64,000 nucleotides of DNA from Candidatus Dadabacteria bacterium (GTDB lineage Bacteria > Desulfobacterota_D > UBA1144 > Nemesobacterales > Nemesobacteraceae). Location: assembly GCA_022822065.1 (NCBI GenBank), contig JAJECI010000010.1, forward strand, positions 186,001-250,000, given 5' to 3'. The translations under genes were made by a program, and so were the position numbers. Below are positions 4,502 through 7,507 of the stretch, in pieces; the stretch's first letter is position 1; the number at the start of each line of letters is the position of its first letter. The notes beneath the pieces are model-generated. The model was given only the letters and a program-made list of their open reading frames with translations, was not told the DNA's origin and did not search any database.

Positions 4502-5662
4502 TTATTCCCCCGCCTGCCCCTCCGCCGCTCTGGCGTCAAGCTCCATTGGCATTATTACGTTTACGTAGCCGTCCTGCTTTTCGCCTTCCTCGCAGGGAAC
4601 CACGTAGACCGGGTTTTTGTGGCCGGAAAAACCGATTATCACTTCCGAAGACCCCACGGCATCAAGAACATCTTGGAAGTACGTGAAGTTGAAGCCAAGC
4701 CTCACCTCTTCCCCTGAATACTCAACTGGCATGCTTTCTTTTCCCTCGCCGGTGTTAAGGTAGGCGCCGAGAAGCAGGTTCCCTTCCCCGAAAGCCATCT
4801 CCACGAACCTTCCCCCGCCCCTCACGTTGTCCGCGGAGAAAAGGGAAACCCTCCTGAGCGCAACCAGCAGCTTGGAGGCGTCGACCGTGACCGTGTTTTT
4901 CGTCGAAACCGGGACTACCTGCATGTAGTCCGGAAATTCAGCGTCAATCACTCTGGAAATGAAAACAAGGTTTTCGTCGTTTAGCTCGAAAACAAAGAAG
5001 TTTCCGCTGCTCCCGATTCTGACTTCCTTCGAGAGGCGGAGAAGCCTTCTTATCTCCATAACCGCTTTTTTGGGGACCAGAATATCCTTCGGCAGGTTAA
5101 GATCCTCTATTTTTTCGTCAACAAAGCTGAGCCTGTGACCATCGGTGGCGACGAGCCTGAGTGTCTGCTCCCCTCTTTTTTCGAAAAACACCCCGGAGAG
5201 GCTCCTTCTCATCTCATCGTCGGAAACGGAAAAGACCGTCTTGGATATCATCTCATCAAGCCTCTCTGAGGAAACCTGGAAAAGGTTTTCCGACGAAATC
5301 TCGGGTATTCTGGGAAAATCGTCGGCCGAGAGCCCCGCTATCTTGAAAGAACCTGAGCTGGTGACAACCTCGATCCAGTTGTTCTCCGTGGCGGTAACGG
5401 AAATCTCCTCCTCTTCCCTGATCTCCCTTACGAGATCCGAAAGAATTCCGGCGGGAACCGCCATCTTGAATTCTCCCTCCGTCTGAGCGTCACAGAAAAC
5501 GGTAACCGTGTTTTCAAGATCAGTGGCTTCCAGAACCACGCCCTTCTCGGTGGAGCTCATAAGAACATGGGAGAGAATCGGCATGGTTGTTCTTTTCTCC
5601 ACGACTCCCTGGATCATTCCCAGCTTCTTTGAAAAATCTCCGCCCTTGATTTTAAACATCAT
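4502..5662 (-). CDS. dnaN: DNA polymerase III beta subunit (sliding clamp)
   Basis: From the ATG at 5662 the protein has 386 residues, normal for the family, with three repeated clamp domains. It starts MMFKIKGGDFSKKL and includes TTMPILSHVLM and RLVATDGHRLSFVDEKI, standard DnaN landmarks; the C-terminal hydrophobic-pocket region is present. The clamp encircles DNA and tethers polymerase III. GGAGG ends 11 bases before this ATG; a TTG at 5680 lies inside that Shine-Dalgarno and is rejected. It follows dnaA on the same strand across a 381-base spacer with origin-like features. Confidence 0.96.
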   Translation of the reverse strand: MMFKIKGGDFSKKLGMIQGVVEKRTTMPILSHVLMSSTEKGVVLEATDLENTVTVFCDAQTEGEFKMAVPAGILSDLVREIREEEEISVTATENNWIEVVTSSGSFKIAGLSADDFPRIPEISSENLFQVSSERLDEMISKTVFSVSDDEMRRSLSGVFFEKRGEQTLRLVATDGHRLSFVDEKIEDLNLPKDILVPKKAVMEIRRLLRLSKEVRIGSSGNFFVFELNDENLVFISRVIDAEFPDYMQVVPVSTKNTVTVDASKLLVALRRVSLFSADNVRGGGRFVEMAFGEGNLLLGAYLNTGEGKESMPVEYSGEEVRLGFNFTYFQDVLDAVGSSEVIIGFSGHKNPVYVVPCEEGEKQDGYVNVIMPMELDARAAEGQAGE

Positions 5663-6043
5663 AAAGAGAAAAACCTCCAACCCTGGAAGAAGACAGATAA
5701 GGAATCCTCTTTCCGTAAATTTCGAATAATGCTCATCAGGGAATAATAACTTGTTTTCCTCAACAAAACTATACCCCGCAAGGGTTTGCCCTGCTTTACT
5801 GCTACTGCTTCTATCTTAATCATTTATTATGTTTCTTAGTAGCAGTAGTAGTAGTCTTTGTGAAAAAGGTGAAACCAATGGAACCACTTGAGATCACAAG
5901 GTTTTCTGTTTTATAACCATGTTTATGGATTTCTTGGTTGTCGACAGCTATTCACACCTCTTTCCGTTTCCGGTTGCGAAGGAACGGAAGTCAAAATCCT
6001 TTGACAGTGTTTTCAGTTCTTTTTAACAGGTGCCGTCTGGCGT
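5663..6043. other. oriC: dnaA-dnaN spacer, candidate oriC unwinding region
   Basis: This 381-base spacer has no gene. It contains TAG-type trinucleotide tracks in both orientations (5796-5813 and 5837-5854), an AT-rich core between them (5814-5836), a DnaA box on the minus strand (TTTTTCACA, 5867-5859) and a near-box CTATTCACA at 5948-5956. In Bacillus subtilis, DnaA box, short linker, DnaA-trio and AT-rich DNA in this order form the basal unwinding element between dnaA and dnaN. Genes on either side of the dnaA region mostly point away from it. Whether replication starts here or in the spacer upstream of dnaA cannot be decided by reading. Confidence 0.6.
5837..5867 (+). promoter_or_regulatory. 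DnaA-trio track with adjacent DnaA box
   Basis: The plus strand reads TAG TAG CAG TAG TAG TAG at 5837-5854. After four bases a DnaA box follows on the opposite strand at 5867-5859 (TTTTTCACA, matching TTWTNCACA). Box orientation, spacing and the AT-rich DNA on the far side reproduce the known order for DnaA loading onto single-stranded trios. One trio is CAG instead of TAG. Confidence 0.55.
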
Positions 6044-7507
6044 CTATGAGGTGATGTACTTCTCCAAGGTTACCGAGACCGTCGTGACGGCGCTTGAGAG
6101 CGAGGGATCCGCCCCGATCTTTTTTTCGACGTTTTTTACCGCGTGTACCACCGTGGAGTGGTTTTTGCCGCCGAACTTGCTCCCTATCTCCGGGAACGAG
6201 GAGGATGTGTATTTCCTCGAGAGGAACATCGCTATCTGTCTTGGCCCCGAGACTTTTTTCTGCTTCTGGTTGGATTTCAGGTCCTTTACGGTCAGGTCAA
6301 AGAAAGAGCTCACCTCTTTCTGGATAAGTTCTATGGTTATTATCTTCGGCGTTTCTTTTCTCACTAGGTTGCTTAGAAGCTGCTTTGCCAGTTCAAGGGT
6401 TATTCTCTCCCTGAACATCCTCGAGTAGGCGAACAGCTTGTTCAGCGAGCCTTCGAGTTCCCTTACGCTTGAGAGGACGTTCTGGGCTATGAAGGAGGCC
6501 ACTTCGCTTGGGATCTCGATCTGCTCTTCCTCGGCCTTTTTCTCTATTATGGCTATTTTGGTTTCCACTTCCGGCGGCTGTATGTCGGCCGTCAGCCCCC
6601 ACTCGAACCTGGATTTCAGGCGTTCCTCGAAGTTCTTCATCACGCTCGGGGGCTTGTCACTCGTTATGACTATCTGTTTTTTCGCCGTGTAGAGGGAGTT
6701 GAACATATGAAAGAACTCTTCCTGGGTGCTGTCTTTTCCGGCGATGAACTGGATGTCGTCTATTAGAAGAACATCGCAGTTCAGCCTGTAGAGGTTCCTG
6801 AACTTATCCATGGAACCTGTTTTTATGCTCTGCACCATCCCGTTTGTGAAATGCTCGGCCGAGATGCAGAAGGTGTTCATGCGGTTTCCGTACTTTTTTA
6901 GTACGTGGTTCGCTATGGAGTGGAGAAGATGGGTTTTCCCGAGGCCCACTCCGCTGTGTATGAAAAGAGGGTTGTAGGCCATTCCCGGATTCTCCGCTAT
7001 GGCGTAGGATGCGGCGTGGGCAAACTGGTTGCTTGGCCCTACGACGAAGTTGTCAAACGTGTTGGATGAGTTGAAGAAGCTCACCGTCTGGGGATCGTGG
7101 GGTTCCGCGCCTTCCGGCCTGTCCGCCGGCCTTCCGCTTTCGGCTTCTTCTGCTTTGGAATCCGTCCTTTTCGCGGCCCTTCCCCTTCTCGTTTTTCCGG
7201 CTTGGGAACTCTCCTCTCCTGTGTCTATCGCCACCTCGAAACTTTCTCCGTAGAGGCTTCGGGCGGTTTCGTTTATCAGCTGCAGGTAGTGGTTTTTCAG
7301 CCAGAGGGCCTGGAAGTGGGTTTTCGCTTCAAGCGTCACGATTTTTCCCTCGATCTTGGCGACTTTTATGGAAAACAGCCAGGAAGGGGGGAAATAAAGG
7401 TCTTTCTTTACGCCGTCGAGAACGGCATCCCATTCAAACTCTGTTTTTTGTTCCGATTCGTAGTTTTCAGCAGCTAGGTCGTGTGCAACTTGCTCCGTCT
7501 TTTTCAA
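6044..7507 (-). CDS. dnaA: Chromosomal replication initiator DnaA
   Basis: This 487-residue protein has all four DnaA domains. Residues 20-92 are domain I (WLFSIKVAKIEGKIVTLEA). Residues about 95-140 are a charged, low-complexity linker. The AAA+ domain carries Walker A GVGLGKTH at 186-193 and Walker B LLIDD at 247-251. The C-terminal helix-turn-helix domain has GGKNHSTVVHAVKNVEKKI. It binds DnaA boxes and opens the origin in an ATP-dependent way. The start is TTG at 7507 behind AGGAGAAG. Degenerate box-like sites upstream (for example 7634-7642) could mediate autoregulation. Confidence 0.97.
   Translation of the reverse strand: MKKTEQVAHDLAAENYESEQKTEFEWDAVLDGVKKDLYFPPSWLFSIKVAKIEGKIVTLEAKTHFQALWLKNHYLQLINETARSLYGESFEVAIDTGEESSQAGKTRRGRAAKRTDSKAEEAESGRPADRPEGAEPHDPQTVSFFNSSNTFDNFVVGPSNQFAHAASYAIAENPGMAYNPLFIHSGVGLGKTHLLHSIANHVLKKYGNRMNTFCISAEHFTNGMVQSIKTGSMDKFRNLYRLNCDVLLIDDIQFIAGKDSTQEEFFHMFNSLYTAKKQIVITSDKPPSVMKNFEERLKSRFEWGLTADIQPPEVETKIAIIEKKAEEEQIEIPSEVASFIAQNVLSSVRELEGSLNKLFAYSRMFRERITLELAKQLLSNLVRKETPKIITIELIQKEVSSFFDLTVKDLKSNQKQKKVSGPRQIAMFLSRKYTSSSFPEIGSKFGGKNHSTVVHAVKNVEKKIGADPSLSSAVTTVSVTLEKYITS

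Follow-up and report, generated by a model that had tools for sequence, protein, structure and literature searches.

Can a bacterial chromosome origin direct the initiator DnaA to both of its strands when the double helix is opened? This question is raised by the spacer between dnaA and dnaN in a 1.63-Mb genome of Candidatus Dadabacteria, which lies within a 64-kb stretch of DNA analyzed as a whole (G000:C9:186001-250000; hereafter the window). An earlier note on this DNA had described two tracks of trinucleotides on opposite strands, separated by an AT-rich core and bordered on one side by a DnaA box, and had interpreted them as a two-sided DnaA-trio array; checked base by base, the coordinates and letters of both tracks, the core and the minus-strand box proved correct (Table 1). 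Judged from its sequence, the locus combines a conserved canonical DnaA-box/DnaA-trio unwinding element (BUS) with a second array of NAG/NAR triplets, likewise conserved, which lies past the AT core on the complementary strand. We tentatively regard it as a BUS variant and see a nearly even chance that the second track would give DnaA a second single-strand array, one that belongs to the complementary strand and lies where the bubble ends on the far side.

Origin identity and the box-side unwinding element

The cumulative GC skew of the 250-kb contig reaches its minimum at window position 5821, within the AT core and inside the 5-8 kb interval that had been named for this check; the tracks themselves sharpen the minimum and aided its exact single-base position (the plus strand is C-rich, then G-rich), and the value is therefore read as a skew that switches in this spacer. 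The congener G013, whose assembly is a single contig of 1.59 Mb, likewise has its minimum at the dnaA-dnaN place (sampled every 40 kb). The dnaA-dnaN spacer is also the usual location of a BUS. These results identify the spacer, by its sequence features, as the chromosomal oriC core of a Dadabacterium, as the earlier note had assumed.

A BUS has been defined by at least three NAN trios of correct polarity, located no more than 16 bp from a DnaA box with at most two mismatches to TTATCCACA (PMC8287927). At this origin, the first track comprises six TAG-type trios four bases from the minus-strand box TTTTTCACA, which differs from TTATCCACA at two positions and matches TTWTNCACA with no mismatch, so that the proposed order and polarity of the Bacillus subtilis element are borne out. 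A run of this quality was reached in 0/5,000 shuffles. The adjoining box is a member of a tandem set, in which a third TTTCAC repeat farther out is degenerate in the window. Its TTTTCACA is kept in 14/14 members of the genus, the tandem TTTCAC boxes and the box-side trios are kept in 13/13 congeners, and GTGTGAATA of the distal box in most of the genus. Every genus member has the first track, as do nearly all of the other Dadabacteria examined. Aligned with B. subtilis DnaA (BUS structure 8btg), the DnaA of the window is identical at N187, I193, R202 and E228 and carries V in place of I190, five residues whose roles in reading the trios have been described (PMC10721633). Taken together, the box-side track has the sequence characteristics of a standard BUS.

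Table 1. Features of the origin region and its flanking genes (window positions)
Feature	Position	Strand	Remarks
dnaN (beta clamp)	4502-5662	-	PF00712, PF02767, PF02768; ATG at 5662 or 5659
dnaA-dnaN spacer, oriC	5663-6043	.	Cumulative GC-skew minimum of the 250-kb contig
Conserved block AGTTATTATT	5742-5751	-	GGTTATTATC in most congeners; from genus alignment
Conserved block GTTTTGT beyond second track	5763-5769	-	Retained by almost the whole genus; missing in G003
Place of possible mirrored DnaA box TACCCCGCA	5772-5780	+	Degenerate in the window; good in some congeners (TAATCCACA in G013)
Second NAR-triplet track TAG AAG CAG TAG CAG TAA	5796-5813	-	Conserved 15 nt: 5799-5813
AT-rich core, putative first melting region	5814-5836	.	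19/23 A+T (83%); contains skew minimum
First DnaA-trio track TAG TAG CAG TAG TAG TAG	5837-5854	+	Canonical BUS trios; direct reading
DnaA box TTTTTCACA adjoining first track	5859-5867	-	0 mismatches to TTWTNCACA
Second, weaker tandem DnaA box TGGTTTCAC	5869-5877	-	Tandem TTTCAC repeats conserved in relatives
Distal DnaA box CTATTCACA	5948-5956	+	Opposite orientation; 1 mismatch
dnaA (initiator)	6044-7507	-	PF00308, PF08299, PF11638; domains I, III and IV recognised

The opposite-strand track and its conservation

The second track is beyond chance. With up to two mismatches, TAGTAGNAGTAGTAG occurs in the 64-kb window only at the two tracks (0.07 expected) and at about eight other places in the genome, and a run of the quality of the second track arose in 3/20,000 dinucleotide shuffles of the 110 bp beyond the first. 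The trio part of a mirrored BUS (at least three NAN, conserved central A, preferred 3'-GA-5') is found here as well.

We compared the track across its genus (the window genome and 13 congeners, labelled within G000-G014), where both tracks are kept, as had been expected of close relatives. The second begins 23-26 nt after the first in most of the 13 congeners; by spacing count, two genomes (G005 and G002) have it closer, owing to a first track that is called longer or to a shorter core. Shuffle p values of 0.02 or less were obtained in 11/14 genomes, including that of the window. Parsimony changes per column amount to 1.87 in the second track and 1.88 in the first, as against 2.50 in the core and 3.33 in the next 18 columns beyond.

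These substitutions are also phased. Seventeen of the 28 changes in the second track affect the 5' base of a triplet (P=0.004), and the same tendency is seen in the first track when it is read along the strand that carries it (12/23, P=0.08). In the cryo-electron microscopy structure of the BUS, the bases of a trio that DnaA captures are G and A, whereas T stays free (PMC10721633). The substitution phase of the second track fits the base-capture rule of DnaA, read on the opposite strand. A test restricted to the central A gave a weak signal of conservation (P 0.017 over 14 genomes, 0.15 over 12).

The dnaN leader of other Dadabacteria and control origins

In other Dadabacteria, the BUS is strong and one-sided; the AT core comes next, and dnaN begins directly after it. 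In 24/25 of these genomes, the dnaN ribosome-binding site reads AGGAG[TCA]AG, usually as [TC]AG-GAG-[TCA]AG, a form found in just 1/29 dnaN genes of other phyla with a GGAG-type site. An ordinary ribosome-binding site was ruled out for AGGAGTAG, which accounts for only 109 of about 9,600 AGGAG..ATG sites (1.1%) in 11 of those Dadabacteria genomes. The shuffle test of the far side gave p<0.05 in 21/25. Among 65 control oriCs obtained by a DnaA search, nearly all from other phyla, p<0.05 was seen in six, one of them a genus member; the far side of control origins is thus near chance level. The sole control with p below 0.01 is a Deferrisomatales metagenome-assembled genome (L078), in which TAGTAATAG lies on the far side downstream of dnaA and before the dnaN ribosome-binding site (shuffle p 0.007).

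In the genus of the window, dnaN starts about 135 bp farther downstream, with GGAGG at 5674-5678 preceding its ATG and a conserved start reading ATGATGTTTAAAATC, and the triplets persist without GGAG. The same place reads TAGAAACAGGAGTAG in G033 and TAGAAACAGTAGTAG in the congener G004. From this comparison we infer that the second track of the genus is the counterpart of the dnaN leader array, with its NAG triplets kept though the Shine-Dalgarno function is now found about 135 bp downstream, and that the array either originated in the dnaN leader or is held in common with it. In most Dadabacteria, the array overlaps the Shine-Dalgarno sequence. It would mean that, phylum-wide, the dnaN ribosome-binding site is overlapped by a probable replication signal.

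A related arrangement was observed in three genomes of family f8 (G046, G044, G045; loci L124, L208, L209), whose dnaN leader TAATAGAAATAGTG lacks GGAG; here, NAR triplets seem to be kept where a Shine-Dalgarno sequence is not recognisable.

Origin opening, helicase loading and competing explanations

How might such an origin be opened? Box-bound DnaA would extend onto the first trios on the plus strand of the window and melt the core. The melted core would expose the complementary strand, and further DnaA protomers, perhaps drawn from the box-bound complex as with the TAG repeats of Thermotoga maritima, could then capture the NAG array on it. By holding both strands at opposite ends, DnaA might stabilise the bubble and offer one landing platform per strand for two helicases. 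In the unwinding region of Escherichia coli oriC, one strand is captured by DnaA at TTATT-type motifs (recruitment to the single-stranded DNA unwinding element, ssDUE); single-strand capture is also what is proposed here for Dadabacteria.

The closest known system is the BUS of B. subtilis (boxes 6/7 and DnaA-trios; PMC6669920, PMC8287927, PMC10721633), with which the Dadabacteria origin shares the dnaA-dnaN location, tandem boxes, a short spacer, six box-side trios of the same polarity, an AT region beyond and the trio-reading DnaA residues; it differs in having, past the core, a further conserved NAG/NAR array that is carried by the complementary strand. In the unwinding element of T. maritima, the box-assembled DnaA complex binds the eTrio, three TAG repeats that are needed for this binding and are separate from the annotated box-proximal trios (PMC10316083), whereas the Dadabacteria array lies beyond the core and on the other strand. 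The DnaD recognition element (DRE) of B. subtilis is likewise a single-strand motif, proposed to direct the second helicase, but consists of TnnT repeats read by DnaD and situated directly opposite the trios (PMC10201434), in contrast to the NAG repeats of Dadabacteria. We found no description of opposite-strand trio arrays in the open-access literature (subscription papers lay outside the search).

What puts the second helicase on the right strand and in the right geometry has been stated to be unresolved (PMC10201434). In the family of the window (f1), a DnaD-family protein (PF07261) is absent in 15/15 genomes (G000-G014), and a DciA match was not found in the same set; another recruiter would therefore be needed, and the B. 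subtilis route via DnaD and the DRE is not evidently available. The family encodes one DnaB helicase and a DnaI/DnaC-like AAA+ protein with a Cys-rich N-terminus (G000:C8:174300-175900, L201). Since neither DnaD nor DciA was found in this family, its conserved opposite-strand array of DnaA type would offer a sequence-encoded answer to the placement of the second helicase. Extended to Dadabacteria oriCs at large, the proposal would be that DnaA captures both strands, with a box-side oligomer and a convergent one on the complementary trios, and that each strand carries one sequence-specified helicase-loading platform without DnaD; we consider this wider version conceivable but doubtful.

Several observations weigh against a second DnaA array. 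The shuffle signal is weak in G007 (p 0.098) and in G010, a deep member of the genus (p 0.045), and was not detected in G003, likewise deep, by a test that misplaced the first track. The alignment anchors of G003 and G010 were set by eye, and omitting both leaves 10/17 changes at the 5' base (P=0.03). Furthermore, the shuffle tests disregard kinship among genomes, several Dadabacteria (G018, G022, G025, G027) deviate at the place of the second array, and the TAG repeats captured in T. maritima are on the same strand as its trios. A mirrored DnaA box (at most two mismatches, within 16 bp) is absent in the window, the best candidate having three mismatches. At the corresponding place, 8/14 genus genomes have a box with up to two mismatches at per-genome p values of 0.1-0.5. 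In other Dadabacteria, dnaN coding sequence occupies the far side. A mirrored box is suggestive in G013 and G005 and was not accepted as established, given that significance was not reached in any single genome. Of the two-sided interpretation, the parts that stand are the oriC, the BUS polarity, the conservation of both tracks and a phase that fits the DnaA rule; a reliable mirrored box is missing, and the far array overlaps the dnaN ribosome-binding site in most Dadabacteria.

Part of this evidence would also suit a one-sided BUS whose second track is a by-product, namely a leftover or current dnaN leader (Shine-Dalgarno region) with no role in opening the origin. The coincidence with the dnaN ribosome-binding site of other Dadabacteria and the lack of a dependable far-side box both point that way. 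Yet the Shine-Dalgarno sequence of the genus lies about 135 bp downstream while the triplets are conserved like the first track and the next 18 columns are not, and the NAG that follows AGGAG in 24/25 genomes is no general feature of ribosome-binding sites in those genomes, so that we judge the by-product unlikely. Somewhat less probable, and drawn by analogy with the DRE, is that the second track serves a different initiation protein, for instance a helicase loader, as a strand-specific recognition site on single-stranded DNA. The second track does belong to the strand that the first DnaA filament leaves unoccupied, and the family has the DnaI/DnaC-like protein with neither DnaD-type protein nor DciA; the triplet phase, by contrast, agrees with the capture rule of DnaA itself, and the DRE has neither the repeat type nor the position of the second track.

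The earlier note had also pointed out that the two arms can pair, and the inverted tracks could accordingly be a DNA hairpin or cruciform, or a leader-RNA hairpin masking the start of dnaN. The arms do fold well as single-stranded DNA in the window (z -4.6 and -3.8) and in several congeners such as G009 and G012, and in one comparison within-genome pairing was slightly above that of swapped arms (P 0.05-0.08). A stable hairpin is absent, though, in six genus genomes (G003, G007, G008, G010, G011, G014), native arms paired no better than swapped ones in the other comparison (P 0.18), and the sister genomes G013 and G014 have the same right arm with different left arms. A conserved hairpin or cruciform was rejected on these grounds, as pairing is neither kept across relatives nor coupled between the arms. 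The masking hairpin fared no better: trio:Shine-Dalgarno pairing in other Dadabacteria did not exceed that of swapped arms (P 0.78), and the genus Shine-Dalgarno sequence is outside the arm. We therefore regard hairpin explanations as improbable. Chance, i.e. a one-sided BUS that happens to adjoin a purine-rich stretch, is the least credible account by far: similar-quality sites do exist elsewhere in the genome and the mechanical trio definition (three NAN) is loose, but the rarity among shuffles, the conserved position in the genus, the phylum-wide counterpart and the chance-level result in the control oriCs all argue against it.

On inspection, we set aside a coding explanation (CTN on the plus strand as Leu codons): the reading frame is disrupted by indels immediately past the track and comes to an end within the core. 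A search for known RNA elements returned just a sub-threshold snoRNA match, elsewhere in dnaN.

In one genome of an unrelated lineage, Bacterium UASB270 (L070:4165-4256), boxes are followed by CTACTACGACTA, an AT stretch, TAGTAG and, after some 11 bp more, an inverted box without mismatch (TGTGGATAA), possibly forming a complete mirrored BUS. Within the genus, few bases of the spacer are as conserved as the blocks TTATGGTTTTGT (5763-5769) and GGTTATTATC (5742-5751), which also occur in L017-L028. Neither is present in the other Dadabacteria seen, and both possibly mark a dnaN promoter or a protein site.
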